This document shows, one piece after another, positions 5,918 to 37,302 of a stretch of DNA of 37,490 nucleotides (within the stretch, counting starts at the first letter, position 1; every line of letters starts with the position of its first letter). Location of the stretch: positions 1-37,490 of the IMG/VR virus record IMGVR_UViG_3300000353_000003; one strand, written 5' to 3'. The position numbers were made by a program, and so were the translations under genes. The notes under the pieces are model-generated. The model made no database searches. It saw only the letters and a program-made list of their open reading frames with translations, and had not been told where the DNA came from. The stretch is from a virus.

Positions 5918-5927
5918 TATAAATACT
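5918..5927 (-). promoter_or_regulatory. Late promoter motif AGTATTTATA
   Basis: The minus strand reads AGTATTTATA with 14 bases before the ATG at 5903. It is directly downstream of a terminator and matches the motif found before other virion genes here. Confidence 0.65.
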
Positions 5928-5936
5928 CATAAACAA

Positions 5937-5957
5937 AAAAGACTACCGATGGTAGCC
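5937..5957 (-). terminator. Rho-independent terminator after the DUF5661-like gene
   Basis: Minus-strand RNA folds GGCUACC-AUC-GGUAGUC, a 7-pair stem with one G-U wobble, followed by a run of U. On the plus strand the same position is an A-C mismatch, so the element is oriented for minus-strand transcription. Confidence 0.8.
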
Positions 5958-5982
5958 TTTTTAATCTAAATTTATTTCTTAA

Positions 5983-8040
5983 TTATCTAATATTGTGTTT
6001 AATCAATAATTTTACTGCTTCACTTTTTGTCATGTTATTAGAAAAATCTCTATCTTTTAATACCTGTCTAGCAACTTTTATCTGTTCTTCAGTAATAATA
6101 TCTTTCTTATCTTCTTTTTCTTCGCTAATTTTCTTTAATAATTGTAAATCACTAGTATCTACTTCTTTTTCACCTTCTTGTCCTTGAAGACTAACAGTAC
6201 CATCATTATCATCTTTACCTTTTACTGTAAGTTGATTTCCATCAGCATCCTGATAACGGTCACCAATATCACCAGCGTAATCATCCATATCTTCATTAGT
6301 ATAATCATTAACATTATGTGGTTTATAACCTAATAATTCATCAGTTTCTTCATCTTCAAGATTTGGATTCTCTGGTTCTTCAACACCAGCTTCTCTTTCC
6401 ATTTTATCGAGATGTGTATAATAATCTGGGATTTCAACTAAGTGGTCCATTGCAATCTCCAATGCTAATTTAGGGTCATCAGTATGTTCTAATTCAACTT
6501 CAAGTCCCATTGCAAGTTGTTTAGGGTCGAAATCACTTACACTTTTATCATCAGCTAATCCACCCTCTAAATTATCTTCCATTTCAATGTCAATATCATT
6601 ATCGATATTATTACCAGATATTAACGAGCCATATTCACCAGTGGGTTTAATTGGTTCATCTTCTTCACCTAACTTTACCACCGATTGCGGTTTTTTCTTC
6701 TTCTTAGGAAATTGGTTTTTTGGTTTGAATTTTTTACCAATTTGGTCAGGATAATTATCTTTATCACTATCTTCATTCATTGTTTGAGAACGCATATCAG
6801 ATAATTGAAGTGCTATTTTCTTAACCATTAAGTAATATTCGTCTTTAGAAATTTCGAATTTTTTTGCACCTAATTTATTTTCAAGTATTTCTTTGGCAAA
6901 AAATATTAATTCTTCTTTCGTTTCAAACGAAAGTAATTTATTGTAATTTCTATTTATAATGTCGTCAACATTTATATTATCAATAACATGATTTTCTTCA
7001 CTAACAATAGATGATTGTTCAGCTAATTCAGATGCAAGTCTTTTAACTGTTGTAATATATGACTCATCTGGTTGTTGTATTGTTGTATCGGTCTTAAGTA
7101 TTCTAATTGCTTCCTTAATATATTTTTCTTTCATTTCAGGAGAAAGCGAATTACTCATGCTATCATTTTCCATAAAATCTTCAGCCCAACTCGGAACAGC
7201 TCTTTTTTTATCTGTTTTTTCCATATATGGTGGTGGGTTTTTAGGTTCAGGAAGTTTTTTACCACTGATTTCCCAATCATTTTTACCCGCTTGTGCGTCT
7301 GCCATTGCTTGGTCATAAGGGTCAATACCTTTAGTACCATCATCAGCAGTAGGCACTTGAGTTTCAAAATCTTCTGGGTTTAATTCATCTTCAGCACTTT
7401 CAACATATTTTTCCATTTCGCTAACAAATTGTTCTAATTCATCTGACTGAACTCTTAAATCTGGATTTGTTGGTTTTTCATCGGCATATGCACTATGTGT
7501 TTGAATTTCTTCGCTTCCTTTTTTAAATGGAATTTTATCTATTAATCCAATTGCTTCTTCGTATATTTCATCATCGACATTAACTTTATCACTATCGGTT
7601 TCAAAATCAGCATATTGTTCAACTACACCCATAATTTCATCACTATATTTATTATTAAATTCCTTAACTGCGTTCATATTTTCAGGAAAATCGACATTGA
7701 AACTATCTGATACTACTTTAAATTCAGTTAAAACAGCACCACCAACATTATAAACCCCATCTTGGTCGCCTTCAGTTGAATTAATTTTAAATGTAAAACT
7801 GATTTCATTACCATTATTATCATTAGTAATGATTTCAACAAAATTTCCGTCATCAACTGTTTGGGTATTTGTTTGTTTAATACTAATTTCTTTATTTTTT
7901 AATTCATTAAATGCTTTTTCAATTAATTGACTACCTGTTTGCATATTATCACTACTTACTTCATTTAATTGAAATTTATTTACTCCTTGATACATTTCAA
8001 GGAATCTTTCTTTACTGCCGATTGGGGTTAATATCTTCAT
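5983..8040 (-). CDS. Acidic virion-associated protein with DUF5661-like segment
   Basis: This 685-residue, very acidic protein has three visible parts. The N-terminal tag MKILTPIGSKERFLEMYQ is shared with the neighbouring metallopeptidase. Long Glu/Asp- and Pro-rich linkers follow. A segment near 500-545 (GLEVELEHTDDP, then IAMDHLVEIPDYYTHL) resembles DUF5661. The C-terminus contains a small domain with YQDADGNQLTVKG. No enzyme motif is seen. Its place as the last gene of a late operon suggests a head, core or internal virion protein. The function is unknown. An LNE tripeptide near residue 28 fits the LxE cleavage consensus of T4-type prohead proteases, which is suggestive only. Confidence 0.7.
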   Translation of the reverse strand: MKILTPIGSKERFLEMYQGVNKFQLNEVSSDNMQTGSQLIEKAFNELKNKEISIKQTNTQTVDDGNFVEIITNDNNGNEISFTFKINSTEGDQDGVYNVGGAVLTEFKVVSDSFNVDFPENMNAVKEFNNKYSDEIMGVVEQYADFETDSDKVNVDDEIYEEAIGLIDKIPFKKGSEEIQTHSAYADEKPTNPDLRVQSDELEQFVSEMEKYVESAEDELNPEDFETQVPTADDGTKGIDPYDQAMADAQAGKNDWEISGKKLPEPKNPPPYMEKTDKKRAVPSWAEDFMENDSMSNSLSPEMKEKYIKEAIRILKTDTTIQQPDESYITTVKRLASELAEQSSIVSEENHVIDNINVDDIINRNYNKLLSFETKEELIFFAKEILENKLGAKKFEISKDEYYLMVKKIALQLSDMRSQTMNEDSDKDNYPDQIGKKFKPKNQFPKKKKKPQSVVKLGEEDEPIKPTGEYGSLISGNNIDNDIDIEMEDNLEGGLADDKSVSDFDPKQLAMGLEVELEHTDDPKLALEIAMDHLVEIPDYYTHLDKMEREAGVEEPENPNLEDEETDELLGYKPHNVNDYTNEDMDDYAGDIGDRYQDADGNQLTVKGKDDNDGTVSLQGQEGEKEVDTSDLQLLKKISEEKEDKKDIITEEQIKVARQVLKDRDFSNNMTKSEAVKLLIKHNIR

Positions 8041-8054
8041 TTTTCTGTCTGTTT

Positions 8055-8486
8055 TTATTCAAAAATTATTGGATTGGCTTTACCAAACTTTCTCATTATT
8101 AATGCTGCTTCTGAATTAGCTTCGTTTTCAATTTCACTACCATCATCACCAGCACCTGCATATAATCTTCCTTCTTTTTTTTGTTTGCGATGAACTAATT
8201 CATGTGCTAATGTTCTTAGTACATCAGCAAGATTCCTATTTAATCCAACTACTCTAATACTATCGGTACTTGGTGTATTTTTACCAAAAGAAGTCATTTC
8301 TGCTGCTTCATTTGGTTCATAAGATATTTCAATATTATTATCATCAACATCCAGATATTCACAAACCTCATCAATAAATTTATTGATGATATCATTCTTC
8401 TTTTCTTTAGGAAGAATATCTTCATTAACTCTTTCCATCATTTCAAAGAGTCGTTGTTTTGAACCACTAGGATGAAAAATTCTCAT
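8055..8486 (-). CDS. Zinc metallopeptidase (HExxH) with shared N-terminal tag
   Basis: This 143-residue protein contains HELVH at 95-99, the zincin zinc-binding and catalytic motif, in a helix (LADVLRTLAHELVH). Acidic residues at about 118-125 (SEIENEANSE) could supply the third zinc ligand as in gluzincins. The N-terminus MRIFHPSGSKQRLFEMMERV matches the tag of the protein at 5983-8040 at about half of its positions. It lies two bases after the upstream gene in a late operon. It is probably an active peptidase of unknown target. Packaging into the virion is an inference from the shared tag and late position. Confidence 0.75.
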   Translation of the reverse strand: MRIFHPSGSKQRLFEMMERVNEDILPKEKKNDIINKFIDEVCEYLDVDDNNIEISYEPNEAAEMTSFGKNTPSTDSIRVVGLNRNLADVLRTLAHELVHRKQKKEGRLYAGAGDDGSEIENEANSEAALIMRKFGKANPIIFE

Positions 8487-8488
8487 TT

Positions 8489-9220: not shown

Positions 9221-9233
9221 AATTAAATGAATA

Positions 9234-9407
9234 TTAGTATTGTTCTCTTAGAAGCATTTTTCCATCTTTAGTAACATATTGACGGTCAATTCTTTCAATT
9301 AATCCAGAACGTTCATTCATAATAACTTTTTTTGTTTCTAAATCGTCATTTTTTTCTTCTGGAACATCAATAAATTTATTGATTGCATCTTCTTTTTTAT
9401 TTTTCAT
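9234..9407 (-). CDS. Small hypothetical protein (57 aa), first gene of late operon
   Basis: A 57-residue frame begins MKNKKEDAINKFIDVPEE and ends RQYVTKDGKMLLREQY. It is charged, with no cysteines or membrane segment. It starts 15 bases after an AGTATTTATA motif and ends 13 bases before the next gene, exactly as expected for the lead gene of the operon running to 5983. No relatives are recognised. The protein-like composition and promoter spacing support it as real. Confidence 0.65.
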   Translation of the reverse strand: MKNKKEDAINKFIDVPEEKNDDLETKKVIMNERSGLIERIDRQYVTKDGKMLLREQY

Positions 9408-9422: not shown

Positions 9423-9432
9423 TATAAATACT
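9423..9432 (-). promoter_or_regulatory. Late promoter motif AGTATTTATA
   Basis: The minus strand reads AGTATTTATA with 15 bases before the ATG at 9407. It heads the operon of four virion-type genes down to 5983. Confidence 0.65.
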
Positions 9433-9450: not shown

Positions 9451-10533
9451 TCAAATATTAAATTTAGAACCACCTAATCCACCAGTTTTTCTTCTATTAA
9501 GCATTTCCCAACCATCATTTAAGTATTTATTATAATAATATTCTTCCATTTTAATTGCTTCTTTAATTGGAATATAATCAGTTAATTTCTTTATTATCGG
9601 TTCTAAATTTGTTTGTTTAATATGCACAGTAACAGCATCACAATTATCTCTTTTTCTATTTTTTTTCCTTTTATTTAAGTCATATGTTAGTCCTACATAT
9701 GCATGATTATCTAAAAATTCATAAACATATATACATCTATGATATTTATCACCACGAGGAATCATATGCTTACATATATCATCAATCCAACCTTTTTTTA
9801 ATGCAATATTATATACATGTTGAGAATTTCTTATAAAATCTGTTTTTGTTTTATATTTTAATGCTTCATTTTTACAGTTCTCAAATGAATGCCAATATCT
9901 ATTTGGTAATTTCTTATATTTCATATGTTGACATATTTCATCTAACCAACCATTATATTTTGCTGCTTGATAAGCATTTTTATCCCCTAATTGAAATTCT
10001 TTCCTGAATTTATATTTTGACGCAATATTTTTACATTTTTCTTTTGACCATTTAAATGATTTAATATAAGGAATTTCCATGTGTTTACATACTTCATCTA
10101 TCCATCCATTTCTAACAGAAGCAGCATATGCTTTCGGAGAATTTTTATAAAAATCTATTCTATATTGATATTTATTTCCTTCTTCCTGACATTTTTCTTT
10201 AGTCCAATAAATTTTTGGTTGATATTTTTCATATTCTTTGGTTATTTCATTTAACCAATTATTTTTTTGTGCAATAAAATATCCCCAACTACATTTTTCT
10301 TTAAACTCACGTTTTGTATTATATTTTAATGCTTCTTCTTTACACCTTTTAAATGTCCATTTTATTGGATGGGCTAAATTTATCATATGTTTACAAGCAT
10401 CATTAAGCCAATTATTCTTTCTTAATAATTCATATGCAGCAATATATTTCTTTTTAAAATCTCTTTTATTATTAAATAATAATGCTTTTTCAAATGCAAG
10501 TTCTTTTGTCCAATAGTTCCGTTTTTTTCTCAT
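9451..10533 (-). CDS. GIY-YIG homing endonuclease with five N-terminal repeats
   Basis: The first about 240 of 360 residues are five tandem copies of a roughly 45-residue module: W-(T/S)-K-E-x-C-x-x-E-A-x-K-Y, an (R/K)-x-(D/E)-F core, and (N/K)-(N/G)-W-(L/I)-(N/D)-(D/E)-x-x-K-H-M. These are probably DNA-recognition repeats. The C-terminal GIY-YIG nuclease domain follows (CIYVYEF...AYVGLTYDLNKRKKNRKRD, then an E in KMEEYYYNKYL, and a closing Asn/Lys-rich GGLGGSKFNI). It would cut DNA and promote its own spread. It sits alone between the sugar island and the virion operon and has its own promoter motif. The family is clear; the recognition site is unknown. Confidence 0.85.
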   Translation of the reverse strand: MRKKRNYWTKELAFEKALLFNNKRDFKKKYIAAYELLRKNNWLNDACKHMINLAHPIKWTFKRCKEEALKYNTKREFKEKCSWGYFIAQKNNWLNEITKEYEKYQPKIYWTKEKCQEEGNKYQYRIDFYKNSPKAYAASVRNGWIDEVCKHMEIPYIKSFKWSKEKCKNIASKYKFRKEFQLGDKNAYQAAKYNGWLDEICQHMKYKKLPNRYWHSFENCKNEALKYKTKTDFIRNSQHVYNIALKKGWIDDICKHMIPRGDKYHRCIYVYEFLDNHAYVGLTYDLNKRKKNRKRDNCDAVTVHIKQTNLEPIIKKLTDYIPIKEAIKMEEYYYNKYLNDGWEMLNRRKTGGLGGSKFNI

Positions 10534-10537
10534 AAAA

Positions 10538-10567
10538 AAATCGTTTAATATAAATACTAAACGATTT
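10538..10567 (-). terminator. Hairpin terminator enclosing a late promoter motif
   Basis: A perfect 9-base inverted repeat (AAATCGTTT / AAACGATTT) encloses a 12-base loop. On the minus strand the right arm runs into seven T, giving a terminator for the gene ending at 10609. The loop itself is the AGTATTTATATT promoter motif for the next gene. Confidence 0.65.
10549..10558 (-). promoter_or_regulatory. Late promoter motif AGTATTTATA in hairpin loop
   Basis: The minus strand reads AGTATTTATA with 15 bases before the ATG at 10533. It occupies the loop of the terminator hairpin at 10538-10567. Confidence 0.6.
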
Positions 10568-15620: not shown

Positions 15621-16369
15621 TATTTTATGTTATTTACTGTTTTCCAACCATTATCAATACATTTAACACATATTTCACCTCGGACATTTAAATGATTACC
15701 AATTCTCCAAGAAGCATTATCATCACTACCAACAGTATTTCCAATATTAAAATCAGAACTCCATAATGATTTATCATTTTCTGGATGTGGTGGCACAAAA
15801 GTGTTAATATTACCATATTTTTGTGCTAAATAAGAAAACATAATATCTTCTCCATTATCCCAAGTATATGGTTTTTCATACCATAAATATTTTGCCCATT
15901 CTTGTCTAAAAAACCAAGCATGACCAACTAAATCAGCACGCTCTGTATTATTTGAATGTGTACCATTCCAACCATATTTATGATGTGGAACATATCCTCT
16001 ACCATGAATAACAACACCACTTCCACCAAGAATACCATTAGTTTCAGGTTTTTGAATTGTATTTAAACAATTTTTAAACCAATTCTTTTGTGGAATAATA
16101 TCGTCATCAAACATTGCAACATATTGTGTTTTAAGTAATAATGGGATTGTAAATCTTCCCCAAAATTTAGTATTCCAACTACACTCATATGTATTGATTT
16201 TTTCATCAATAGGTAGTAATTGTTCAACATCACTCATGTTATACCAAACATGTATATTCTCACTTTTAATTGGTATTGATTGATTTTTTATTGACTCTAT
16301 TTGCTTTTCAAGCATATGTGGTCTTTTATAAACATTTAATATTACACTAATATCATTCATAATTTTCAT
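15620..16369 (-). CDS. GT-A type glycosyltransferase
   Basis: The 249-residue protein starts ISVILNVYKRPHMLEKQIES, the typical nucleotide-binding start of family 2-like transferases, and has the metal-binding FDDDI (about 93-97) and a later aromatic-rich acceptor region with GEDIMFSYLAQKYG. It shares a TAATG junction with the next gene and overlaps the previous one by 17 bases. An internal ATG at 16360 (MNDISV) is an equally plausible start with a shorter overlap. Donor and acceptor are not deducible. Confidence 0.72.
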   Translation of the reverse strand: MKIMNDISVILNVYKRPHMLEKQIESIKNQSIPIKSENIHVWYNMSDVEQLLPIDEKINTYECSWNTKFWGRFTIPLLLKTQYVAMFDDDIIPQKNWFKNCLNTIQKPETNGILGGSGVVIHGRGYVPHHKYGWNGTHSNNTERADLVGHAWFFRQEWAKYLWYEKPYTWDNGEDIMFSYLAQKYGNINTFVPPHPENDKSLWSSDFNIGNTVGSDDNASWRIGNHLNVRGEICVKCIDNGWKTVNNIK

Positions 16370-17291
16370 ATTTTTTTAATGAGTCACATAATTTTTGAGT
16401 AAAAACTCCTTTACCATTTATTCTAACATCACCATGTAATTTTGAATCATTATTACCATCATGATATACTAATGATTCTGGTGTTCTATAATAATAACCA
16501 TCTAATCTATTAACATTTTCATTTATTTGAGTCCATGCCCTAACAGGAACACCTGCATTTTTTACTATTTCATCAACAGATTGCATTTGATAGTTTATAC
16601 TTTTTATTACTTCAATATCCAATAAAGATATTCCATCAACAAAAACATTATTATTCCACCAACCCTCATTGTCAATTTTTTTATTTATAAATGACCACGT
16701 ATGAGGCGAAATACCTCTCATGTTATCATCAATATTTTTTTGTTCAAAATAAATATCAGTTATTGTATCTAAGAAATTATCACATAATATAAAATCATCA
16801 TCCATTTGTAAAACTGCATGACATTCAATATCTTTTAAAAATTTCCACATTTGATTATAACAATACCAATGTAAAAATTTTCCATTGGGTTTATCGTTTT
16901 TTAAATAAATTATTTCAGAAAATTCGTCAACTAATTTATCATATAATTTATCATTTGAACCATCATTTAATAAAATTATTTTAAAACTATATTTAGTTTC
17001 TTGTTCATAAAATTGAGAAATTAATCTCCTGACTTTTTGATATCTTTCATGTGAAGGAATACAAATAACAATATCATAATCAACCATTATTTTTTTATGA
17101 TAAATTTTTGGTTTAGGTTTTCGTTTTCTTCCAGTTCTTATTTCATTTCTACTAACTAAACCAACCTGAACACGTATTGGTGGGTTTGCTGATGCTCTAT
17201 CTTTATCTCTAACACCCATATTCTTAGTAGATTTTTTTAATTCAATTCTTTTTTTTATTATTTTTTTAACTGATTTCCGTTCTGCTTTCAT
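16353..17291 (-). CDS. Family 2 glycosyltransferase with basic N-terminal extension
   Basis: Residues 1-65 of about 312 are very basic (RKSVKKIIKKRIELKKS, then TGRKRKPKPKIYHKK), an unusual extension that could bind nucleic acid or membranes. The GT2 domain follows: YDIVICIPSHERYQKVRRLI, ILLNDGSND, and MDDDF as the DxD. The ATG at 17291 overlaps the stop of the upstream gene as TAATGA; a TTG two codons earlier was rejected. The basic tail is interesting if the glycosylation target is DNA, but that is speculative. Confidence 0.75.
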   Translation of the reverse strand: MKAERKSVKKIIKKRIELKKSTKNMGVRDKDRASANPPIRVQVGLVSRNEIRTGRKRKPKPKIYHKKIMVDYDIVICIPSHERYQKVRRLISQFYEQETKYSFKIILLNDGSNDKLYDKLVDEFSEIIYLKNDKPNGKFLHWYCYNQMWKFLKDIECHAVLQMDDDFILCDNFLDTITDIYFEQKNIDDNMRGISPHTWSFINKKIDNEGWWNNNVFVDGISLLDIEVIKSINYQMQSVDEIVKNAGVPVRAWTQINENVNRLDGYYYRTPESLVYHDGNNDSKLHGDVRINGKGVFTQKLCDSLKKYENYE

Positions 17292-19246: not shown

Positions 19247-19558
19247 TTATTTTTTAAATGCCGATAGTGCTGCTTCATAATCTGCTTTGGCTTTATTTAA
19301 TGGAAATGGAATTCTAATTAATGCACCATCTGGAATGTCGAATTCGTTTAAATACTTACCATTAGCATATATAATTAGAAAATCATAAAATGGATTATCA
19401 TAGTATTTTTGAGCAATTTTATCCATCCTACTAAAACCAATATTCCAGTACTCATATTTATCACTTGGGTTTTCAGGTAAATTAATAAATGGCATTGAAT
19501 CCGTTGTACCATTATCATTTTTTAATATTTCATATCTTTTATAATCTTGGTATGGCAT
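19247..19558 (-). CDS. LysM-type baseplate protein (gp53-like)
   Basis: This 103-residue protein contains a LysM-like core: RMDKIAQKYYDNPFYDFLIIYANG followed by FDIPDGALIRIPFP, the pattern seen in T4 gp53 and other short tail proteins that cap or join baseplate parts. It shares a TAATG junction with the large baseplate gene upstream. Assignment as a wedge protein is by motif and location, not by overall similarity. Confidence 0.55.
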   Translation of the reverse strand: MPYQDYKRYEILKNDNGTTDSMPFINLPENPSDKYEYWNIGFSRMDKIAQKYYDNPFYDFLIIYANGKYLNEFDIPDGALIRIPFPLNKAKADYEAALSAFKK

Positions 19559-22500: not shown

Positions 22501-22878
22501 ATTACCTTTAAGTGCTTGAGATAAATCTATACTTGGAATATATTGAGTACTTAAATTCGCTGCTGAATTATAAGCCATTTGTTTACCCAACATAATTAAT
22601 CCTATTTCGGTTAATGGTGAACCATCATCTCTAAATGCATCATACGTATTACCTAATAAATTAGTATTTACTTGCATTCTATTATATTGAGGTACTACAT
22701 TTAATACAGTAGAAATGCTACTTGCAACATTACCTTTATTATTTAAAGAGAATTTATTATTATTTTTATATTCGTTATCAATATCATATAAACTACGTGC
22801 AGATATTATATCACGATATTCTTCAATTGGAATCTCCTGACCATTATATTCAATATTACCATCTAATAATCTTGACAT
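19558..22878 (-). CDS. Large baseplate protein with OmpA-like region
   Basis: This 1106-residue protein is the first gene of a late operon with the LysM-type gene. About 690-850 includes a segment resembling the OmpA C-terminal peptidoglycan-binding fold: VNIYFQNNRPKSGE, YYDITISGFASKLYL, and YNKGVAKRRIDAAIALIEARL, then VNFGDSRAN. After a coiled-coil stretch, the C-terminal part (VGDFFNTKVVIESVTIDYND, then WDLNPEGFGLQPMIANITL and KIIGGQSL) looks like a tube- or hub-attachment domain of the kind found in baseplate proteins. It probably forms part of the baseplate around the tube. The OmpA-like call is moderate because the usual Asp is not obvious. Confidence 0.7.
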   Translation of the reverse strand: MSRLLDGNIEYNGQEIPIEEYRDIISARSLYDIDNEYKNNNKFSLNNKGNVASSISTVLNVVPQYNRMQVNTNLLGNTYDAFRDDGSPLTEIGLIMLGKQMAYNSAANLSTQYIPSIDLSQALKGNPENIFKLNRDNTITVKNPDDKTFLDNVGSVANNILGFETYDVFGDANPFSKNPTSIDYLENTGKVQLSRFLSAVNLNIYKPLNDISNSQYSQVLTEKMNGVGPKLQSSTDSLFSNNNTSFKPIFNFDDNNAHPYFNRTLSFNASIANINATEAMILSYSISGDTVQEYAPTYQYVKDNFGDVVIKYPENNILDIVKEQTIIDNSEEQIVWGRDGVADEAKSFIKDLRGTDDETEDHPDTNIFNKNNVRKGILEYTRNLLNATEGNFVDITRKVFKEGENYVGFNGSPLWMANQSKYSEDSGNIVDINSTLGNIQFGKTGVRQHTALDPYDRAAKTIRFKGNQVYGRESGNRDSVIYKNILPRIHPTNNTEDGSKNLMFSLENLAIGAFRPPDVKYGIIDDEFGTPIPLSEVGQFGGRKMWFPPYNIQLNEVASAKYESTVMVGRNEPMYNYMNSERSAVLSFSLLVDYPEQLRNKNLQGENKNKAIAEFFAFGGDPLPNEYNIEKIQKKITDLENELDTITPTEQAEPPVKSTKTVNIYFQNNRPKSGEESTIIQSMYDNPNHYEIIESSLSAQDGNGFGLNNKIYYVEGLAEVPNSTDNNNKYILIDGVDQYNTDENDINGQFGSTNFLTQYLLDFYADEESRKYYDITISGFASKLYLSDDGQTYNKGVAKRRIDAAIALIEARLTALFDASTAKEIVDNNIQTVNFGDSRANNISADPDFINAKEVKEERKVSIKFARNSVEVDKKEPNLSESQRVRNEQLQDEINDLEKELKKAKTKVIENIFNERDDVVLNGFDSIAKNRYNPVFHSQTPEDFHRRLTFLQQCTRQGSAQRYDAVNEGGILRAKNSVFGKQPICVLRVGDFFNTKVVIESVTIDYNDTTWDLNPEGFGLQPMIANITLQMKIIGGQSLKAPIDALQNAVSFNYYANSTFTDKGVYSKATKIANDNYQYLKGVVSEKTNELNTAYNNFINDREGNE

Positions 22879-22892: not shown

Positions 22893-22902
22893 AATAAATA
22901 CT
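22893..22902 (-). promoter_or_regulatory. Late promoter motif AGTATTTATT
   Basis: The minus strand reads AGTATTTATT with 14 bases before the ATG at 22878. It heads the baseplate operon. Confidence 0.6.
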
Positions 22903-25832: not shown

Positions 25833-25842
25833 TATAAATACA
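25833..25842 (-). promoter_or_regulatory. Late promoter motif TGTATTTATA
   Basis: The minus strand reads TGTATTTATA with 15 bases before the tape-measure ATG and only 3 bases after the terminator stem at 25846-25867. Confidence 0.6.
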
Positions 25843-26050: not shown

Positions 26051-27052
26051 CTAAATGTCTGGGAAAAAAAAATCCACACCGACAGATAATAGAGCATTGA
26101 ATTTATACCCGTCTTCGGCAGTAAATTCATAATTCATATCAACATCTGGACTAACATCTAGTATTTTTCTACGAATAGTTAATGCATCCATAGCTGGCAT
26201 AGCATCAACAAATTTATTAATATAGGTTCTATCACTATTATTGTCGATTGATACAATATGTGATTTTAATTTTAACGTACTATATTCACTAAATTCTTGA
26301 TTAAACTCTTTTTTTAGTGCTTCTGCTTGTTGGTATAATATATTTTCTTCTCCTGAAGTCAATAATCTGATTTTAACATTTTTTTTACGCATTGGAAGTT
26401 TAAGAGTAAAATGTCCGTTTTCATCAGGTAATTCTTCTATTTTTTTATAACGTAATTTATTTAAATCTACTTTTGATTTAAAAGGTTTATTTTTTCTTGG
26501 GTCAGTTACTTGAACACTATATTCTGAACCATAACTTGAACTACGTAAGAATAATATAATAGCATTTCTATCACCTGCAAGTAAATCATCAATATTAACA
26601 CCTTTAGTTTTAATTTTTCTCTTTAATAATACATCTAAAACCGTACCGTTTTCAATTAAAGATGGTGTTGTAAGCAAGTCTTCATCTTTTGATGTCATGT
26701 ATTCAACTTTAACTTCACCTACACCATTTTTATTATATAAACCTTTTGATGGTAATTTAACAATTTCATATGATGTCATTAAATCAGGGTCGGTTTCTCT
26801 ACTCATAACATCTTGAAATTCTTTTGTATTATAATCATTTGCAGTAGGCATTGAAGCTGTTTGAGGTTCAGAAACAGGTGGGTTATTAGGTGTTGATTGA
26901 GGTTTAGACATATCAGGTGTTGCTGTTGTATCATCAAGAGGTAATGATTCAACAGATTCTGGTGATGGAAGAGTCCCTTCATCACGCATTTTCTTATATT
27001 TTTTCAATACATCTCCAATTGGTTCTCTTTTAGGATTTTCGTTGTTTTCCAT
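26051..27052 (-). CDS. Baseplate/tail assembly chaperone (T4 gp26-like)
   Basis: The first about 90 of 333 residues are a Pro/Thr/Gln-rich linker. A T4 gp26-type domain follows (YEIVKLPSKGLYNKNG, EYMTSKDEDLLTTPSLIENG, then AGDRNAIILFLRSSSYGSEY), as in the T4_baseplate family. A T9 run (complement of 26064-26072) is followed four codons later by the stop. It precedes the short chaperone frame and the tape measure. In many tailed phages the gene here makes a chaperone and a frameshifted longer form that wraps the tape measure during assembly. The gp26 relationship is good; the chaperone role is inferred from context. Confidence 0.72.
   Translation of the reverse strand: MENNENPKREPIGDVLKKYKKMRDEGTLPSPESVESLPLDDTTATPDMSKPQSTPNNPPVSEPQTASMPTANDYNTKEFQDVMSRETDPDLMTSYEIVKLPSKGLYNKNGVGEVKVEYMTSKDEDLLTTPSLIENGTVLDVLLKRKIKTKGVNIDDLLAGDRNAIILFLRSSSYGSEYSVQVTDPRKNKPFKSKVDLNKLRYKKIEELPDENGHFTLKLPMRKKNVKIRLLTSGEENILYQQAEALKKEFNQEFSEYSTLKLKSHIVSIDNNSDRTYINKFVDAMPAMDALTIRRKILDVSPDVDMNYEFTAEDGYKFNALLSVGVDFFFPDI
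26064..26072 (-). other. Slippery T9 run, candidate -1 frameshift site
   Basis: On the minus strand GGA is followed by nine T, then CCC. A -1 slip on T-TTT-TTT lets translation bypass the nearby TAG stop (26051-26053) and continue into the chaperone extension frame without another stop. Confidence 0.55.
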
Positions 27053-27090: not shown

Positions 27091-27100
27091 CATAAATACT
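27091..27100 (-). promoter_or_regulatory. Late promoter motif AGTATTTATG
   Basis: The minus strand reads AGTATTTATG, 38 bases before the gp26-like ATG at 27052. It is in the divergent region before the plus-strand genes. Confidence 0.5.
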
Positions 27101-27213: not shown

Positions 27214-28020
27214 ATGGGTAGAGATAAATATAAAGAAGATAGAGAATTTGAAGAAATAATTTCTGTAAATAGTGATATGGAAATTTCTAAAATAAAAAAA
27301 ATAATAAGTGCTTTATTACCTAAAGACATTAAAATAATTTCTAAAAATGAAAGTCAGAAGAATTTAATTAAATCTATAAAAAATAATGAAATTACGATTT
27401 GTGCAGGACCTGCTGGTACTGGTAAAACTTATGTTGCATTAGCATATGCGTTGAGTTTATTGAGAAAAAATAATAATCGATTTAAGAAAATTTATTTAGT
27501 AAAGTCAGTAACTACATTAAAAGGTGAAGAAGTTGGATTTATTAAAGGTGATTTAAGGGATAAAATAGACCCTGCAATGTGGAGTTTTTATATTAATATG
27601 GAAAAATTAATATTAGATAACACAATAAATTCATTAATTGAACAAGATATCATTAGACCATGCCCATTAGCATATATGAGAGGTGCTAGTCTTGATGATT
27701 GTATTATAATTGCCGATGAAATGCAAAACGTTACATTGGATAATTCCAGAACTTTACTTACAAGAATAGGTAAGAACACTAAATTAATATTACTTGGTGA
27801 TATTAATCAAATTGATATGAAAAATAAAAAGGAAAGTTCATTAGAAATACTATTAAATATTTTTGATGAAATTTCTAAAATTGGTGTTATTAAAATGTCG
27901 GAGGAAGACACAAATATTAGAAATCCTCTTATTAGTGTTATCGAAGATAAATATAATGAATATTTTGATAGTATTAATAAAAAAGAAAGAAATTATGCAA
28001 GACGATTATTAACTAATTAA
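27214..28020 (+). CDS. phoH: PhoH-like ATPase
   Basis: This 268-residue P-loop protein has Walker A GPAGTGKT (65-72) and Walker B IIIADE (164-169) followed by MQNVT, and SRTLLTRIGKNTKLILLGD (motif III region), matching PhoH/RNA-helicase-like ATPases common in large phages. It probably acts on RNA or nucleotide metabolism during infection. It is the first plus-strand gene, divergent from the tail genes, and is followed two bases later by the next gene. Family assignment is strong; role in the phage is not known. Confidence 0.88.
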   Translation: MGRDKYKEDREFEEIISVNSDMEISKIKKIISALLPKDIKIISKNESQKNLIKSIKNNEITICAGPAGTGKTYVALAYALSLLRKNNNRFKKIYLVKSVTTLKGEEVGFIKGDLRDKIDPAMWSFYINMEKLILDNTINSLIEQDIIRPCPLAYMRGASLDDCIIIADEMQNVTLDNSRTLLTRIGKNTKLILLGDINQIDMKNKKESSLEILLNIFDEISKIGVIKMSEEDTNIRNPLISVIEDKYNEYFDSINKKERNYARRLLTN

Positions 28021-28022
28021 TT

Positions 28023-28301
28023 ATGGAAGAAAAAATATTAGTGATTTATATTGGAGTTCAAGGTATAAGAACAGAAGATATTGAATACTTTACAAATAAA
28101 GTAGCAAAAAAAATCATTCCTTCAACATTTAAAGGTGAGGTAATTGTATTACCGATTCAATCATCTGATACGAGAATTGAATGTATTGAACCTAAATATA
28201 TTACAGATGATGAATTAATTAAAGAACATTCTGAATTAATGAAGGATTTACATAAAGAACTACATCATCAATTAAAACAAATGAAAGAAAATTATGAGTA
28301 A
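28023..28301 (+). CDS. Small hypothetical protein downstream of phoH
   Basis: The 92-residue protein begins MEEKILVIYIGVQGIRTED, has an alternating beta-alpha start and a charged, His/Lys-rich C-terminal helix (KDLHKELHHQLKQMKENYE). It starts two bases after phoH and overlaps the HAD-like gene by 8 bases, so it is part of this operon. No function recognised. Confidence 0.65.
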   Translation: MEEKILVIYIGVQGIRTEDIEYFTNKVAKKIIPSTFKGEVIVLPIQSSDTRIECIEPKYITDDELIKEHSELMKDLHKELHHQLKQMKENYE

Positions 28302-29031
28302 AAAAATAAAAATAGGTATTGATATCGATGAGGTATTGAGAGCAAAATGGTTGCAATTTGATAGATTTTATGTTCAGGAATTTGGTGAAGAAAATGTTCC
28401 TGAAGAACCATATGTATTTGATTTTTTTAATGAATATAAATGGGAAGATACTGTTGAAGAAATCAAAGAAATGCGTGAACCAGAAGACACACCAGAAGAA
28501 ATAAATCCAATTGACTATCAACTTGATGAAAATGGTGAAGCCCCTGCTGATTTTATGTTATATAAACCAACTGAAAAAATTGAATTAACAGCAAAAGAAG
28601 TTTATAATAGATTTATGTATGAAGATTTTCTTTTTGAAATTCATGGTGCTGCACCAAAAATGTATTCTCAATTAGATTTAGATGTAAATAAGTTTTTAGA
28701 AAAATATGAAAAAAGACTTAATTATACTGTGATGTCAGTTGAAAATAAATTCAGTATTCCACCTACATTATTTTTCTTAAGTAAGATTTCATGTAGATTC
28801 AAGAATTATAAATTTCTTAATAAAGCCACTGATATGTGGAAAGAAGTGGATGTTTTAATAACAACAAACCCCGAAATATTAAAATTAGGTGCGCCTTGGG
28901 GAAAAAAAATTATAAAATTAAAAAGACCTTATAATGAAAATATAAAATCAGGTTCTTTAGAAGTTCTACAAATTGCTGATTTAATTAATAATAAGGATTT
29001 TGAAAAAATAATAAAATATAAAAAGAAATAA
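28294..29031 (+). CDS. HAD-like protein resembling a 5'-nucleotidase
   Basis: The 245-residue protein begins GIDIDEVLRA, the DxD motif I of the HAD superfamily (D9, D11), and has a long inserted cap-like region. The C-terminal motif IV region reads DVLITTNPEIL, followed by GAPWGKKIIKLKRPYNEN, like NT5C-type deoxyribonucleotidases, but the usual two acidic residues are replaced by two threonines. That may weaken metal binding, so activity is uncertain. It precedes two glycosyltransferases and overlaps the previous gene. Confidence 0.6.
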   Translation: MSKKIKIGIDIDEVLRAKWLQFDRFYVQEFGEENVPEEPYVFDFFNEYKWEDTVEEIKEMREPEDTPEEINPIDYQLDENGEAPADFMLYKPTEKIELTAKEVYNRFMYEDFLFEIHGAAPKMYSQLDLDVNKFLEKYEKRLNYTVMSVENKFSIPPTLFFLSKISCRFKNYKFLNKATDMWKEVDVLITTNPEILKLGAPWGKKIIKLKRPYNENIKSGSLEVLQIADLINNKDFEKIIKYKKK

Positions 29032-29035
29032 TAAA

Positions 29036-30184
29036 ATGAGTGAAGAATTAGAAAAAGCAACAGAAAATGCTGAAGTTCAAAAAATTGAGAAAATAAAATC
29101 TAGTCTCGATAAATTAAAAAATAAGAAATCTAAATTCTTATTTGTAGTACCTGAATCACAAAATCCAGTTGCTAGTGTATATGAAATATATTTTCATGCA
29201 ACAGTTGTGAAAAATTTAGGTTATAAAGTAATTATAATGGTTGAAAAAGGTGATTATGTTGTACCTACTTGGATAGAGAAAGAACTTACCGACCACGAAC
29301 ATATGTCAATGGCAGACCCTAAATTAATGGTAGGTCCTGAAGACGTAATGGTAATTCCTGAAGTATATTCAAACATTATGGAACAGACAAAAAATCTACC
29401 GTGTTTAAGAATTGGTCTATTACAATCGATTGATTATATGACGAATTCTCTGATACCGGGTAGCGATTGGTCGTCTTTTGGAATTCAAGATATAATTACG
29501 ACTTCTCAAACACTTAAAGACTTATTTGAAACATATTATGGTAAAAATAGATATGATATAAAAACATATGATATCGGCATACCAGAATATTTTGAAAAAA
29601 CTGAAAAACCACAAAAACCTGTGATTTCAGTTATTGGTAGAAATGCTAATGAAATATCAAAATTAGTTAAATTATTTTATAGTAAATATCCTGAATATAA
29701 TTGGGTTACTTTTGATACTATGTTAACTAGAAGCAAACCGCCTCAACCAATGCGTAGAGTTGATTTTGCAAAAAGACTTCAAGATAATTTTGCTGCATTA
29801 TGGATTGATAGAATATCTTCTTTCGGAACATTTCCATTAGAGTGTATGAAGTCAGGTACTATCCCAATTTGTTTAAAACCAGATATAATGCCTGAATACA
29901 TGATTGAAAGAGATGATAATGGTGTGCCGACTAAAGCATTAGACGATGCTGGTATTTGGACTGAAAACTATTATGATTTACCAATTTTATTAGGTAATAC
30001 AATAACTAAATTTTTAGATGATGAAATTTCAGATGAAATTTATAATACTATGGATAAAGTAGTTTCTAAATATAATCAAAATAATAGTGAGTCTCAAATA
30101 ATTGACATCTATACGCAATTTACTAATAAGAGAATTGAATTAATGGAAAAGTCTCTAGAAACACCAATTACTGAAGAAAAATAA
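29036..30184 (+). CDS. GT-B type glycosyltransferase
   Basis: The 382-residue protein has a Rossmann start after a charged N-terminus (FLFVVPESQNPVASVYEIYF), a middle linker and a second Rossmann half (VISVIGRNANEISKLVKLFY) with FGTFPLECMKSGTIPICLKP, the donor-binding E-x7-E-like region of GT-B enzymes. It follows the HAD-like gene by four bases and precedes a family 2 transferase. Together they form a second glycosylation pair outside the main island. Substrate unknown. Confidence 0.7.
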   Translation: MSEELEKATENAEVQKIEKIKSSLDKLKNKKSKFLFVVPESQNPVASVYEIYFHATVVKNLGYKVIIMVEKGDYVVPTWIEKELTDHEHMSMADPKLMVGPEDVMVIPEVYSNIMEQTKNLPCLRIGLLQSIDYMTNSLIPGSDWSSFGIQDIITTSQTLKDLFETYYGKNRYDIKTYDIGIPEYFEKTEKPQKPVISVIGRNANEISKLVKLFYSKYPEYNWVTFDTMLTRSKPPQPMRRVDFAKRLQDNFAALWIDRISSFGTFPLECMKSGTIPICLKPDIMPEYMIERDDNGVPTKALDDAGIWTENYYDLPILLGNTITKFLDDEISDEIYNTMDKVVSKYNQNNSESQIIDIYTQFTNKRIELMEKSLETPITEEK

Positions 30185-30206
30185 TATTAACAAAAAAATA
30201 TATAAA

Positions 30207-31016
30207 ATGAATATATCAATAATTATTCCAATACATAAATATGATGAGACAGTAAAAAAATATTTAAGTAATGCTGTTGAATCAATAAAAAGACAAGAAG
30301 ATTTTAATTCAACAAAAGTTTTAATTGTTTCACCTAAAGAGGTTTTAAATCAAGTAATTCCTGAAATTAATAAAGAGGAAAATCTAAATATTAATTTTAT
30401 TGAAAATACTGGTGAGATAGATTATCAATCACAAGTTAATTTAGCTGTTGAATCGGTAGATACTGATTATTTTACTGTTCTTGAATTCGATGATGAACTT
30501 AGTTCAACATACATAAAGAATTGTGAAAAATATATTAAAAATTATCCCGAAGTAGATATATTTTTGACAATGATGATTGAAGTCAATGAAAAAAATGAAG
30601 GACTTAAATTAACCAATGAAACTGTTTGGGCACAACAATTTGTTGGTGAAAATGGTGAAATGGGTTATTTAAATATAAATGCTTTAAAACAATATACTGA
30701 TTTTAAATTAAGTGGTGCTGTCATAAAAAAAGATGAGTTTAAAAACATTGGTGGGTATAAACCAAATATTAAACTAACTTTTATGTATGAGTTGTTACTT
30801 AGAGCATTAAATAATGCATGTAAAATATTTACAATTCCAAAAATTGGATACAGACATCTTGCTACTCGTGAAGATAGTTTGTTTGGTAATTATCAGAAAA
30901 ACATGAGTATTGATGAAAGAAAATTCTGGTTTGAGACAGCGACAAAAGAATCTAATTTCATGAATGACAGACCAATTGATTTATCTAAATTAAAGAAATT
31001 TGTAATTGCAGAATAA
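30207..31016 (+). CDS. Family 2-like glycosyltransferase (GT-A)
   Basis: This 269-residue protein starts MNISIIIPIHKYDETVKKYL, typical of family 2 transferases, and has the metal-binding FTVLEFDDEL (near 92-101) and a later IGGYKPNIKLTFMYELLLRA acceptor-side region. It is separated by 22 bases from the GT-B gene. Donor and acceptor cannot be told from sequence. Confidence 0.75.
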   Translation: MNISIIIPIHKYDETVKKYLSNAVESIKRQEDFNSTKVLIVSPKEVLNQVIPEINKEENLNINFIENTGEIDYQSQVNLAVESVDTDYFTVLEFDDELSSTYIKNCEKYIKNYPEVDIFLTMMIEVNEKNEGLKLTNETVWAQQFVGENGEMGYLNINALKQYTDFKLSGAVIKKDEFKNIGGYKPNIKLTFMYELLLRALNNACKIFTIPKIGYRHLATREDSLFGNYQKNMSIDERKFWFETATKESNFMNDRPIDLSKLKKFVIAE

Positions 31017-31039
31017 CATTATAATTGAAATTATTATGA

Positions 31040-31792
31040 ATGAAGCAAAAAGATAAATCAAAACAATATTTTGGAGAAAAAGAAGAACAAGCGGTTATAG
31101 ATTATATTAATTCTGATTCGCTGGAAGAAAAAAATAAAATCTATAACGAAATATTGATTGAACCATTTAGAAAGATGATTCAATCAATATTAAGAAGATA
31201 TCCTATACATATTGGTAATTATGATATGGAAGAGGTTGAATCTAATGCACTTACTCACTTAATCGAACACATGATTAAGTTTAATCCTAATAAAATTACT
31301 AAGTCTGGCAGTAAAACTAAAGCGTTTAGTTATTGTCAGACGATTATTAGGAATTACTATAAAGACCATAGTAAAAAAAGTTATAATGAAAAGAAGACTA
31401 ATTTAAATTTTGACGATTATGTTGATGAGATTAATAATAATAGAAATTTCACTTATGAAATGGAATTAGAAAATCAACATCAACTTGAAAAATTAATAAA
31501 ATCTGTTGTTGATAAGATTGAAGATAAAATTGATAACGACCCAACTATGAAAAAAAATGAAATTTTAGTTGGTGATGCAATTGCTAATGTATTGAAAAAT
31601 TGGCAAATATTATTTATGGAAGATAGTCCAGATGGTAATTATGATAAACGTGTTACAAATAAGTTTGCTAAAAATAAAATATTATTGTATTTGAAAGAAC
31701 AAACTGGATTAAGTACTAAAGAAATTCGAATTGGGATAAAACCATTTAAAGAAATTTATTTTTTTGAAAAATTAGATTATATTGATGATTAA
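31040..31792 (+). CDS. 55: RNA polymerase sigma factor (T4 gp55-like, late)
   Basis: The 250-residue protein shows sigma-70 region 2-like order: ILIEPFRKMIQSILRRYP, DMEEVESNALTHLIEHMIKF, then KAFSYCQTIIRNYYKDHSKK, the helix that in sigma factors binds the -10 element. No region 4 is obvious, as in T4 gp55, although the C-terminus is longer than in gp55 (185 residues). It would redirect host RNA polymerase to late promoters, and the AGTATTTATA motif before the virion genes is the natural candidate target. It sits directly before the first plus-strand gene carrying that motif. Family call is good but not certain. Confidence 0.65.
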   Translation: MKQKDKSKQYFGEKEEQAVIDYINSDSLEEKNKIYNEILIEPFRKMIQSILRRYPIHIGNYDMEEVESNALTHLIEHMIKFNPNKITKSGSKTKAFSYCQTIIRNYYKDHSKKSYNEKKTNLNFDDYVDEINNNRNFTYEMELENQHQLEKLIKSVVDKIEDKIDNDPTMKKNEILVGDAIANVLKNWQILFMEDSPDGNYDKRVTNKFAKNKILLYLKEQTGLSTKEIRIGIKPFKEIYFFEKLDYIDD

Positions 31793-31808: not shown

Positions 31809-31818
31809 AGTATTTATA
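31809..31818 (+). promoter_or_regulatory. Late promoter motif AGTATTTATA (plus strand)
   Basis: This is the plus-strand copy of the motif, 18 bases before the ATG at 31837. It heads the plus-strand baseplate genes and lies just after the sigma factor gene. Confidence 0.65.
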
Positions 31819-31836: not shown

Positions 31837-32220
31837 ATGGCTAGACCAAAACGTAAAAAATTAAAATTTGATGAAGATAGTGTAAATAAACTACTTCAAG
31901 AGATATATGATGAAAGTCATAACCAGAAAGCTAAAATAACAAGACTATTCACTAAATGGGAAACCAAGATTAAAGAAACTGGTGAAGTTGCAGCAATTGG
32001 TGACCAAATAGTAAAATTGATTGCTGCCGAAGCAAAAAATCAAGACCAAAAAATAATGTTACTCCGTTATTTAAAAGAAGTTGTTTTTGATAAAAAAGGT
32101 GATGGTGCAAATATAAAAGGTCAAACCAGTACTGAAGAAAAGGGTGAAATTAGTACTGAAAGAAGAAATGAACTATTAAATTTTGTTCATGATGAATTAG
32201 AAAACAAAGGAAAAAATTAA
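31837..32220 (+). CDS. Hypothetical basic protein, first plus-strand late gene
   Basis: The 127-residue protein has a basic start (MARPKRKKLKFDED), a helical middle (LLQEIYDESHNQKAKITRLF and a GEVAAIGDQIVKLIAAEAKN helix) and a charged tail. It is all-helical by appearance, with no catalytic motif. It is led by the plus-strand late motif and followed two bases later by a large virion-type gene. A small terminase-like or DNA-binding assembly role is possible, but only as a guess. Confidence 0.6.
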   Translation: MARPKRKKLKFDEDSVNKLLQEIYDESHNQKAKITRLFTKWETKIKETGEVAAIGDQIVKLIAAEAKNQDQKIMLLRYLKEVVFDKKGDGANIKGQTSTEEKGEISTERRNELLNFVHDELENKGKN

Positions 32221-35230: not shown

Positions 35231-35234
35231 TTTC

Positions 35235-36020
35235 ATGAATATTGATGTACCAAAAAAATTCTTTACTACATTTAATGAAGTCATTTATCACGATGAACCA
35301 CATAAATATTATATTAATGATAAACAATTAATTAGTGTTACTACCATTATACATAAATATCAAGAAGAATTTAATGAAGACTATTGGTCTAGAGTCAAAG
35401 CAGAAGAATATGGTCTTAGTCAAAAAGAAGTAATTCGTGCATGGAGATTTATTAATAAAAAAGGAACAATGAAAGGTTCTGCTATTCATGATTATGCTGA
35501 AAATCTTTTTTTAAATAAAGTCTTCCCTTATCCTAAAGAATTAATCTATAATGAATTTGGTTTTGACCCTGTACTAGAAGAATATAATATAACTAAAAAT
35601 CATGTAAATAAATTTCATAGTGATGTTCAGGGAAAATTAATTCCTATTCGAACAGAAATGATTGTTTATGATAAAGAATCATTAATTGGTGGAATGGTTG
35701 ATATGTTATTTTATAATGTTAAAGCAGGTGAGTTTCAAATATGGGACCATAAAACTAACAAAAAGTTAACAATGAATTCTGAAAGAAGAATGAAAGATGA
35801 ACTTTATATGTTAGAAGAAAGTGATTTCAATATATATTCATTACAATTAGGAATTTATAAATATATTATTGAAAAAAATACTAAAATAAAATTGGGTAAG
35901 TCATATATTATATGGTATTCACATAATAATGATAATTATAAAATTATAGAAATGAAGGATTTAACTTATTTTATTAATATAATTATAAATAAAAGAATTA
36001 ATGAAATTAAAGCAATGTAA
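35235..36020 (+). CDS. PD-(D/E)XK nuclease (RecB/Cas4-like)
   Basis: The 261-residue protein has the PD-(D/E)XK series: GSAIHDYAE with H85, E141 in RTEMIVYD, IGGMVDML with D156, IWDHKT giving D171-x-K173, and QLGIYKY with Q204 and Y208 (the QxxxY motif of the RecB/Cas4 group). No cysteine cluster is seen, so it lacks an Fe-S site. It probably processes DNA ends in replication, recombination or packaging. A host-type promoter directly precedes it, suggesting early expression unlike its late neighbours. It meets the LAGLIDADG gene tail to tail with a 14-base overlap. Confidence 0.82.
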   Translation: MNIDVPKKFFTTFNEVIYHDEPHKYYINDKQLISVTTIIHKYQEEFNEDYWSRVKAEEYGLSQKEVIRAWRFINKKGTMKGSAIHDYAENLFLNKVFPYPKELIYNEFGFDPVLEEYNITKNHVNKFHSDVQGKLIPIRTEMIVYDKESLIGGMVDMLFYNVKAGEFQIWDHKTNKKLTMNSERRMKDELYMLEESDFNIYSLQLGIYKYIIEKNTKIKLGKSYIIWYSHNNDNYKIIEMKDLTYFINIIINKRINEIKAM

Positions 36021-36669
36021 ATTTATTTCGTTTTCTGGACAAACCAATATGAACTAAATCACCATATAAATAATTATAAAATTTTAGTATATCTTTTTTA
36101 TTTGTTATTCGAATTTGTGATGAATAACCACCTCTACTAGAAATTATACGTTCTCTAAATTTTTCTATTTCAATCTCATTAAATAAATTAATAATGAAAG
36201 ACCAATTTTGTTCTTTATGACCAGTAAATGCAACTGAATGATGACCTTTAGGAATTATGGTAACCGACCCATCACCGTCAAAAAAACCTCTAAACCATAA
36301 TTGTTTTTGAAGATAATTTAATTTATCTAATATTTTTTCTGGTGAATTTAATTTATTTCTATAATCATTTTGAATTAAGAATTCACCTAATTTTCGATTT
36401 GAAGTCCAGTTAACTTCAAGAAAATTTTTATTTTTAGTATACGAACCCTGATTTCTTGTTTCATACAATCCCCAATTTCCTGTTTTAAGAAATATTTTTC
36501 TAAACTCAATATTATCTTCTTTTTTTGTAGAATGTTTAATTTGAGGTGTTTTTGCATTATTATTTGCAAAAATAACTGTGCCATCAGCCCATAACAAACC
36601 GAGAATATATGCATGTATTGGTGTTTTAATTCTAATAAATTTTTTTGAATCAACTTTTTCAATTTTCAT
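36007..36669 (-). CDS. LAGLIDADG homing endonuclease
   Basis: The 220-residue protein has both LAGLIDADG helices, ILGLLWADG (22-30) and LWFRGFFDGDG (124-134), each with its acidic catalytic residue, typical of a free-standing single-chain homing endonuclease. It is inserted convergently between the PD-(D/E)XK gene and the tail tube gene, overlapping the former by 14 bases. It probably cuts related phage genomes near this site and spreads itself by repair. The upstream region contains a strong hairpin. Confidence 0.88.
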   Translation of the reverse strand: MKIEKVDSKKFIRIKTPIHAYILGLLWADGTVIFANNNAKTPQIKHSTKKEDNIEFRKIFLKTGNWGLYETRNQGSYTKNKNFLEVNWTSNRKLGEFLIQNDYRNKLNSPEKILDKLNYLQKQLWFRGFFDGDGSVTIIPKGHHSVAFTGHKEQNWSFIINLFNEIEIEKFRERIISSRGGYSSQIRITNKKDILKFYNYLYGDLVHIGLSRKRNKFTLL

Positions 36670-36702
36670 AGTAATTAGTTTACGTTTCCCAATATTTTTT
36701 TA

Positions 36703-36734
36703 ATTTAAACCACCAAATATATGGTGGTTTAAAT
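36703..36734. repeat. Perfect 13-base-pair hairpin with embedded TATATTTG
   Basis: ATTTAAACCACCA and TGGTGGTTTAAAT are perfect complements around a 6-base loop. On the minus strand the loop and flank read TATATTTG. It lies between the tail tube stop and the homing endonuclease. A long U-tract is absent on both strands, so it is only a weak terminator candidate. Confidence 0.5.
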
Positions 36735-36752
36735 TCTGTTATTTTGTATTCA

Positions 36753-37250
36753 TTAGAGATTTAAAATACATCTCCAAGGCTGTAATTCTAACGTAATATT
36801 TGTTAATTCATCGCTAGTATAATCATTTTCACCAAAATCAATACTTGTTATCATACATTGATGTAATGTCCATTTTTCAACAGTAACACCTGTTGGGTCT
36901 AAAGATTTAAGTGTAATATTCTTTTTATAACCTGCTGCATAGCCCATACGACCAGTAAGTGATTCTGCATGTAAACGAACCCATTCCATAAGTTGTTGTG
37001 AGGTAGAAGGACCGATTGGGTCGAGAAAAGTTACAGAAATAGTATCCCAAGTATATCTACCTGCAACATAATTCTGTTCGTTCATATATTGAATTGGTAC
37101 GCTATTAATTTTCATTGAAGGTCTTTTAAATTTTTGAACCTTCCAAGTCTGAATACCTAATGCATCATCGAATACTGCAAAGAATCTATTAACTCTTTTT
37201 GGTTCGTAGTCATAAGGCATCGTTCTAATCATTGTTTCTTCTGCTGCCAT
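36753..37250 (-). CDS. 19: Tail tube protein (T4 gp19-like)
   Basis: The 165-residue protein is almost the same length as T4 gp19 (163). It has the tail-tube pattern: a start with NRFFAVFDDALGIQTWKVQK, then KFKRPSMKINSVPIQYMNEQ, WDTISVTFLDPIG, and the C-terminal ITLELQPWRC. It polymerises into the inner tube through which DNA passes. A late motif is 42 bases upstream. It is separated from the tape measure and chaperone by the plus-strand block, unlike the contiguous order in T4. Confidence 0.85.
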   Translation of the reverse strand: MAAEETMIRTMPYDYEPKRVNRFFAVFDDALGIQTWKVQKFKRPSMKINSVPIQYMNEQNYVAGRYTWDTISVTFLDPIGPSTSQQLMEWVRLHAESLTGRMGYAAGYKKNITLKSLDPTGVTVEKWTLHQCMITSIDFGENDYTSDELTNITLELQPWRCILNL

Positions 37251-37292
37251 TTTATCTAATTGTTAATTATAATACTTATTTTTATGTTTAAT

Positions 37293-37302
37293 AATAAATA
37301 CT
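37293..37302 (-). promoter_or_regulatory. Late promoter motif AGTATTTATT
   Basis: The minus strand reads AGTATTTATT, 42 bases before the tail tube ATG at 37250. A second partial AGTATT lies between it and the gene. Confidence 0.5.

Follow-up and report, generated by a model that had tools for sequence, protein, structure and literature searches.

In phage T4, late transcription uses the sigma factor gp55 with gp33 and gp45 at the late box TATAAATA, and the sigma function is split between gp55, which provides region 2, and gp33, which binds the beta flap (PMC2988020). Here we analyze a candidate late promoter motif, AGTATTTATA, and a sigma-like protein, sigA, in IMG/VR record IMGVR_UViG_3300000353_000003. 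The window is this complete 37,490-bp record, and thus a genome fragment; it carries T4-like genes (UvsX-like, exonucleases, PhoH, tail tube, baseplate hub, and tape measure), and no close DNA relatives were found among deposited phages. We propose, with a probability of roughly 0.8, that AGTATTTATA is the late promoter -10-like element of a large T4-related jumbo-phage group and is read by sigA. Judging from promoter type and the hosts of relatives, this group probably infects Bacteroidota.

An earlier note on this DNA had placed the motif, exact or with one change, at eight positions, and all eight were present:

5918..5927, minus strand: candidate promoter core AGTATTTATA (exact), 14 bp before the ATG of gene 4506-5903
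9423..9432, minus strand: candidate promoter core AGTATTTATA (exact), 15 bp before the ATG of a 57-aa open reading frame (ORF), 9234-9407
10549..10558, minus strand: candidate promoter core AGTATTTATA (exact), 15 bp before gene 9451-10533 (phrog_20046)
22893..22902, minus strand: candidate promoter core AGTATTTATT (one change), 14 bp before gene 19558-22878 (1106 aa, function not assigned)
25833..25842, minus strand: candidate promoter core TGTATTTATA (one change), 15 bp before the tape-measure-like gene 23292-25817
27091..27100, minus strand: candidate promoter core AGTATTTATG (one change), 38 bp before the baseplate-hub-like gene 26051-27052
31809..31818, plus strand: candidate promoter core AGTATTTATA (exact), then TGTACTAAAACTAT, 18 bp before gene 31837-32220
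37293..37302, minus strand: candidate promoter core AGTATTTATT (one change), 42 bp before the tail tube gene 36753-37250

The note's distance of 14-18 bases before the ATG for six sites was exact (14, 15, 15, 14, 15, and 18), with 9423 counted for the 57-aa ORF. Its description of the downstream genes as mostly virion-type held for the tail tube, tape measure, and baseplate hub genes and failed for others, many being homing endonucleases or unassigned. Terminator-like hairpins lie directly upstream of the 5918..5927 site (with a terminal T run) and the 25833..25842 site (ACCGAG..CTCGGTCTTTT). Two weaker matches were not among the eight: 16353-17291 has AGTATTTAAA 32 bp upstream, and 28023-28301 has AGTATTAATA 43 bp upstream, the latter probably a chance match. 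As a separate observation, the product of 9451-10533 (minus strand), a gene under a late-type promoter, has repeats and, by eye, a GIY-YIG-like C-terminus; 36007-36669 (minus strand) encodes a LAGLIDADG protein and adjoins the tail tube gene, and the late gene set of this phage group commonly includes homing endonucleases.

Across the whole window, matches to AGTATTTATA with at most one change numbered 30, compared to 16.4 ± 3.9 in shuffled sequence (0 of 100 shuffles reached 30), a background implying that many one-change matches elsewhere arise by chance. The excess was concentrated before genes and on the gene's strand: for 9 of the 38 window genes, a match of this kind lay 10-45 bp upstream of the ATG, whereas shuffled upstream regions gave a mean of 0.65 genes and a maximum of 4, with 0 of 2000 shuffles reaching 9. 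Exact GTATTTAT, the core of the motif, preceded 7 window genes versus 0.135 in shuffles, and the opposite orientation occurred 10-45 bp before the ATG of 0 of 38 genes. Thus, the comparison with shuffled DNA that the earlier note had named beforehand revealed a clear excess, and the orientation with the gene that it described was borne out. Because the window is a fragment, however, the statistics rest mostly on its relatives.

About 100 close relatives of sigA were found in IMG/VR, several of them on contigs of 200-365 kb, which places the window in a jumbo-phage group. We analyzed four whole relatives (G001, 349 kb; G002, 299 kb; G003, 322 kb; and G004, 365 kb), and in 4 of 4 an unbiased 8-mer count returned GTATTTAT as the top 8-mer before genes. 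It preceded 80 genes in G001 (4.0 expected), 60 in G002 (2.4), 55 in G003 (3.2), and 74 in G004 (3.9), with opposite-strand occurrences before 13 genes in G001 and 7 in G003. Position-weight-matrix sites with a score of 9 bits or more in the 60 bp upstream of genes were found on the same and opposite strands, respectively, 66 and 1 times in G002, 81 and 2 times in G004, and 7 and 0 times in the window. The G002 and G004 logos read aGTATTTATa, about 2-3 free bases, and then A-rich DNA, with no conserved column near -35. At the 31809 site, GTATTTATATGTACTAAAACTAT after the sigA gene is kept in jumbo relatives with the same neighbor gene as in the window. No published promoter of this jumbo-phage group was found in the open-access papers searched, and a literature search for GTATTTATA gave no phage paper among the matches listed.

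The proposed reader of the motif is encoded just before the 31809 site:

31040..31792, plus strand: sigA, phage sigma factor of 250 aa, with region 2 at about residues 12-122 and a C-terminal helical part resembling a helix-turn-helix (HTH); proposed late sigma
27214..31792, plus strand: six-gene run, PhoH - 92 aa - 245 aa - 382 aa - glycosyltransferase-like - sigA

In G002 and G004, this run keeps its gene order, with genes of similar size, and sigA identity among the window, G002, and G004 is 75-81%. No late motif stands in front of the PhoH-led run, as expected of a late sigma that is made earlier. Pfam and PHROG sigma matches of sigA were weak only; its PF04542 score of 13.6 bits (cut-off 24) and the lack of a PF08281 match place it outside the extracytoplasmic function (ECF) sigma factors as defined by Pfam. 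Direct comparison of the window sigA with T4 gp55 gave no signal, and detection needed the wider family: a profile built from nine gp55 proteins of the T4 type found the sigA of LR756508 (E 7.3e-5), and hhalign aligned the sigA family with the gp55 profile co-linearly through region 2 (E 1.2e-4, probability 55%). Against viral models, a 264-aa protein matched best (E 1.1e-4), and many of the weaker matches below it bear the name sigma or late sigma factor. Searching PDB sequences with the sigA profile gave no sigma match, and Foldseek with the first sigA model returned nothing below E 0.7. Scans of viral contigs found no relatives for Mel-JY01 sigA and only two for LR756508 sigA.

A structure model built from 76 relatives (mean predicted local confidence, pLDDT, 77; predicted global score, pTM, 0.45) superposed on T4 gp55 from the gp55-RNA polymerase promoter complex (7d7c_F) with Z 9.3 and a root-mean-square deviation (rmsd) of 4.6 over 130/137 residues, although for helical models, Z values of 8-9 may reflect no more than a shared arrangement. 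Region 2 of sigA fitted region 2 of sigmaE with an rmsd of 2.5 over 91 residues. These sequence and model comparisons support the earlier assignment of a gp55-like sigma to 31040-31792, whose product is a sigma region-2 protein and a distant homologue of gp55. Beyond region 2 lie about 100 residues, in which helices 143-245 mostly have pLDDT >80 and end in an HTH-like pair. The T4 gp55 family has a hydrophobic-acidic epitope for the sliding clamp at the C-terminus (SLDFLYEAND in T4 gp55); the C-terminus of jumbo sigA proteins is mostly EK(I/M)DYLDD or near it, and the immuto clade lacks this ending. A clamp epitope common to sigA and phage DNA polymerase was considered and rejected, as it was not seen in the jumbo DNA polymerase tail. 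No clear T4-type gp45 N-domain (PF02916) was found in 11 records, a weak test. The C-terminal part may be a sigma-4 or a gp33-like part, and we hypothesize that sigA may unite the jobs of T4 gp55 and gp33 in one chain.

Several variants of sigA were observed among the relatives. Some jumbo contigs encode, directly after sigA, a 120-130-aa paralogue of sigA region 2 alone (FWTTEVEEAL...SYC..IIRSAIA), which may act as a modulator or as a second gp55-like sigma:

L013 3357-3746, plus strand: sigA region-2 paralogue
L030 2131-2523, plus strand: sigA region-2 paralogue
L037 2635-2997, plus strand: sigA region-2 paralogue
L041 7141-7518, plus strand: sigA region-2 paralogue

Contigs L042, L048, L049, L050, L057, L080, and others carry an insert of about 40 residues in sigA region 2 (about residues 88-130), between the 2.2 and 2.3 helices. 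In L001 (4690-5442), sigA contains one in-frame TAG with the remaining frame intact; TAG readthrough gains little coding elsewhere on this contig, and recoding is thus not clearly supported.

Besides sigA, the jumbo relatives have as many as three other sigma-like proteins (sigB, an ECF sigma; sigC, a second ECF-like sigma; and sigD, a gp55-like protein with region 2 only), so the pairing of sigA with the motif rests on comparative evidence rather than on the window. In the Flavobacterium phage immuto, the sigA homologue gp118 was the only sigma-like protein found, and a late-type motif, CTATTTAT, precedes 35 genes. In the Rhodothermus phage RM378, p020 is a sigA homologue (E 4e-10) and TTATTTAA precedes genes. 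Across 80 of 80 immuto-clade loci, NTATTTAT stands right after the sigA stop codon and before the next gene. The base before TATTTAT was G in 177 of 204 jumbo sites; among 172 immuto-clade sites, it was C in 112, A in 48, and G in 4. The A class may in part represent the early promoter of the phage, which shares TATTTA. As judged from these site counts, the first base of the motif tracks the sigA clade. Upstream of about 30 immuto genes, a long element, TTTC.TATATTTAGGTATCAATAATTAAAA, is repeated, and AGTTGC lies about 27 bp ahead of it; this arrangement is probably a strong host-type early promoter of the phage.

Reading of the late motif by another phage sigma, either sigC or the 114-aa sigD, is unlikely, though more probable than the other alternatives. 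The proteins concerned are:

G002 145850-146533, minus strand: sigC (PF04542 above cut-off)
G004 313189-313803, minus strand: sigC (PF04542 above cut-off)
G001 62539-63189, minus strand: sigC (PF04542 above cut-off)
G003 294176-294742, minus strand: sigC (PF04542 above cut-off)
L254 1498-1842, minus strand: sigD, gp55-like, region 2 only (108-114 aa for the three sigD genes)
L255 1456-1782, minus strand: sigD
L256 1459-1800, minus strand: sigD

The presence of sigC in every large jumbo relative tested would suit this alternative, as would the better fit of the gp55 profile to sigD (hhalign probability 93.9; hidden Markov model E 1.3e-6) than to jumbo sigA. However, immuto has the CTATTTAT class, yet sigB, sigC, and sigD were not detected there, and sigD, present in G001, G002, and G004, was not found in G003 despite its 55 GTATTTAT genes. 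In addition, sigD evolves fast (27-43% identity), whereas sigA keeps 75-81% among the window, G002, and G004. The co-distribution in immuto, RM378, and G003 thus leaves sigA as the common factor.

Several further observations weigh against the proposed explanation and join the caution on the structural score and the pTM of 0.45. LR756508 has sigA, yet whole-upstream, restricted, and transcription-unit-start searches found no TATTTA word there, and the TATTTA motif is weak in Mel-JY01. The additional sigC and, in some jumbo relatives, sigD count on the same side. Since T4 gp55 recognizes TATAAATA, the specificity of a homologue that recognizes another word must have changed. Finally, PHROG matches in the motif-gene sets count for the late-promoter reading, since they include portal, large terminase, tail sheath, head protease, and head decoration proteins, as well as endolysin, endonuclease VII, and numerous homing endonucleases; they are, however, tallies per gene set, not mapped to each gene and with no matched background set. 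Separately, upstream words GTATATTTG/ATATTTAT in Microcystis phage Mel-JY01 (PP395634; our W03) look Bacteroidota-type, and the nearest relatives of its core genes are in Flavobacterium phages and jumbo phages of this group; its stated cyanobacterial host may deserve a check.

A role for the motif as an mRNA element near the start codon, aiding translation in hosts with little Shine-Dalgarno pairing, would also fit its narrow distance from the ATG: the G of the motif is typically 22-27 bp before the ATG in the relatives, where gene calls followed a simple longest-ORF rule and some distances reflect wrong starts. However, some sites are 38-55 bp away, and the motif marks genes with room upstream. 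The median upstream gap was 66 bp (G002) and 79 bp (G004) for motif genes versus 5 and 13 bp for others, and gaps below 25 bp occurred for only 6-12% of motif genes versus 57-64% of other genes. Among co-directional cases with room, a terminator-like hairpin lay directly upstream of 18 of 77 motif genes versus 14 of 201 other genes (p = 5e-4). A translation element should serve operon-internal genes equally, and the gap and terminator pattern therefore counts against this role, to which we assign very little probability.

A variant T4 late box TATAAATA, read in the usual way by a T4-type gp55, is scarcely credible and was rejected on orientation: although AGTATTTATA is the reverse complement of TATAAATACT, which contains TATAAATA, and sigA is gp55-like, TATAAATA occurred on the same and opposite strands 25/68 and 16/44 times in jumbo phages versus 21/7 in T4, the positive control in the same pipeline, where it was among the top words and GTATTTAT was not found on the gene strand. 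The motif of the jumbo phages is thus distinct from the T4 box.

The late-promoter reading is supported by strand specificity, clustered position, location at transcription-unit starts, upstream terminators, absence of a -35 element, virion genes, and conservation across clades. What rests on sequence here is the motif with its strand and position, the transcription-unit starts, the gene sets, the homology and fold of sigma region 2, the co-distribution, and the clade-linked base change; from these, we infer sigA, rather than another sigma, as the reader, the start site, and late expression of the genes. In the mechanism we propose, sigA would bind the host RNA polymerase core, and its region 2 would read AGTATTTATA (core GTATTTAT, about 3 bases, AAA) as a -10-like late promoter element without a -35 box. 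The mRNA would start just after AAA, giving a very short leader of about 7-12 nt before the ATG.

Jumbo genomes also have a second promoter class, TGTAACa-N16-TCGTATA, before 31-52 genes per genome (depending on cut-off), mostly with a spacer of exactly 16. Arrays of this ECF-type class lie downstream of and around sigB:

L082 (G002 30929-46700): ECF-type promoter array
G004 174168-195400: ECF-type promoter array
G001 around 292628: ECF-type promoter array
G003 around 185699: ECF-type promoter array

Between 44% and 63% of ECF-class genes are within 25 kb of sigB, and 0-7% are near sigC. By PHROG matches, this gene set includes rIIA, rIIB, and polynucleotide kinase, in contrast to the virion-type matches of the motif-gene sets, together with a methylase and a DNA polymerase match. 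The window, RM378, and T4 lack this class, and in immuto and LR756508 it precedes no more than two genes. Host-type TAnnTTTG promoters precede some phage genes, probably early ones. This arrangement of promoter sequences suggests a host - sigB (ECF) - sigA cascade in jumbo phages. A fuller version, which we offer tentatively and at somewhat less than even odds, would have host sigma acting early, sigB controlling the TGTAAC-N16-CGTATA regulon including rIIA/rIIB, and late sigA combining gp55 and gp33 in one chain at a box that mirrors the opposite strand of the T4 late box.

The late-promoter assignment would provide promoters, and from them predicted transcription units and timing, for a widespread giant-phage group, and it points to a likely late sigma in immuto and RM378, where gp118 and p020 are both annotated as hypothetical. 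Immuto would offer a tractable case of a gp55-like sigma changing specificity, with one base, G versus C/A, tracking the sigma clade. A one-chain late sigma, if true, bears on the origin of the split gp55/gp33 system of T4.

As the earlier note had maintained, the motif differs from both the T4 late box and the host promoter, despite being nearly the reverse complement of the former. The Bacteroidota housekeeping promoter, TTTG-N19-TAnnTTTG, is a different word with a -33 box and does not explain GTATTTAT. ECF sigma promoters have two boxes, a -35 with AAC and a -10 with CGT. The jumbo TGTAAC-N16-CGTATA class looks ECF-type, and sigA resembles ECF factors in its superposition on sigmaE region 2; unlike them, sigA falls below Pfam sigma cut-offs, and the AGTATTTATA class has neither a -35 box nor two boxes with a fixed spacer. 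The immuto and RM378 motifs differ from the jumbo motif in the first base and the 3' end, and immuto lacks the ECF class; like the jumbo phages, however, both pair a sigA homologue with TATTTA-core promoters. Compared to T4, the jumbo system has GTATTTAT(A) rather than TATAAATA on the gene strand, and whereas T4 gp55 has about 185 aa and no sigma-4 domain, sigA has 250 aa and the extra C-terminal helical HTH-like part. The two systems are alike in a phage sigma recognizable by region 2, a single AT-rich -10-like element with no -35, A-rich DNA after the element, virion genes served, and tens of sites per genome.

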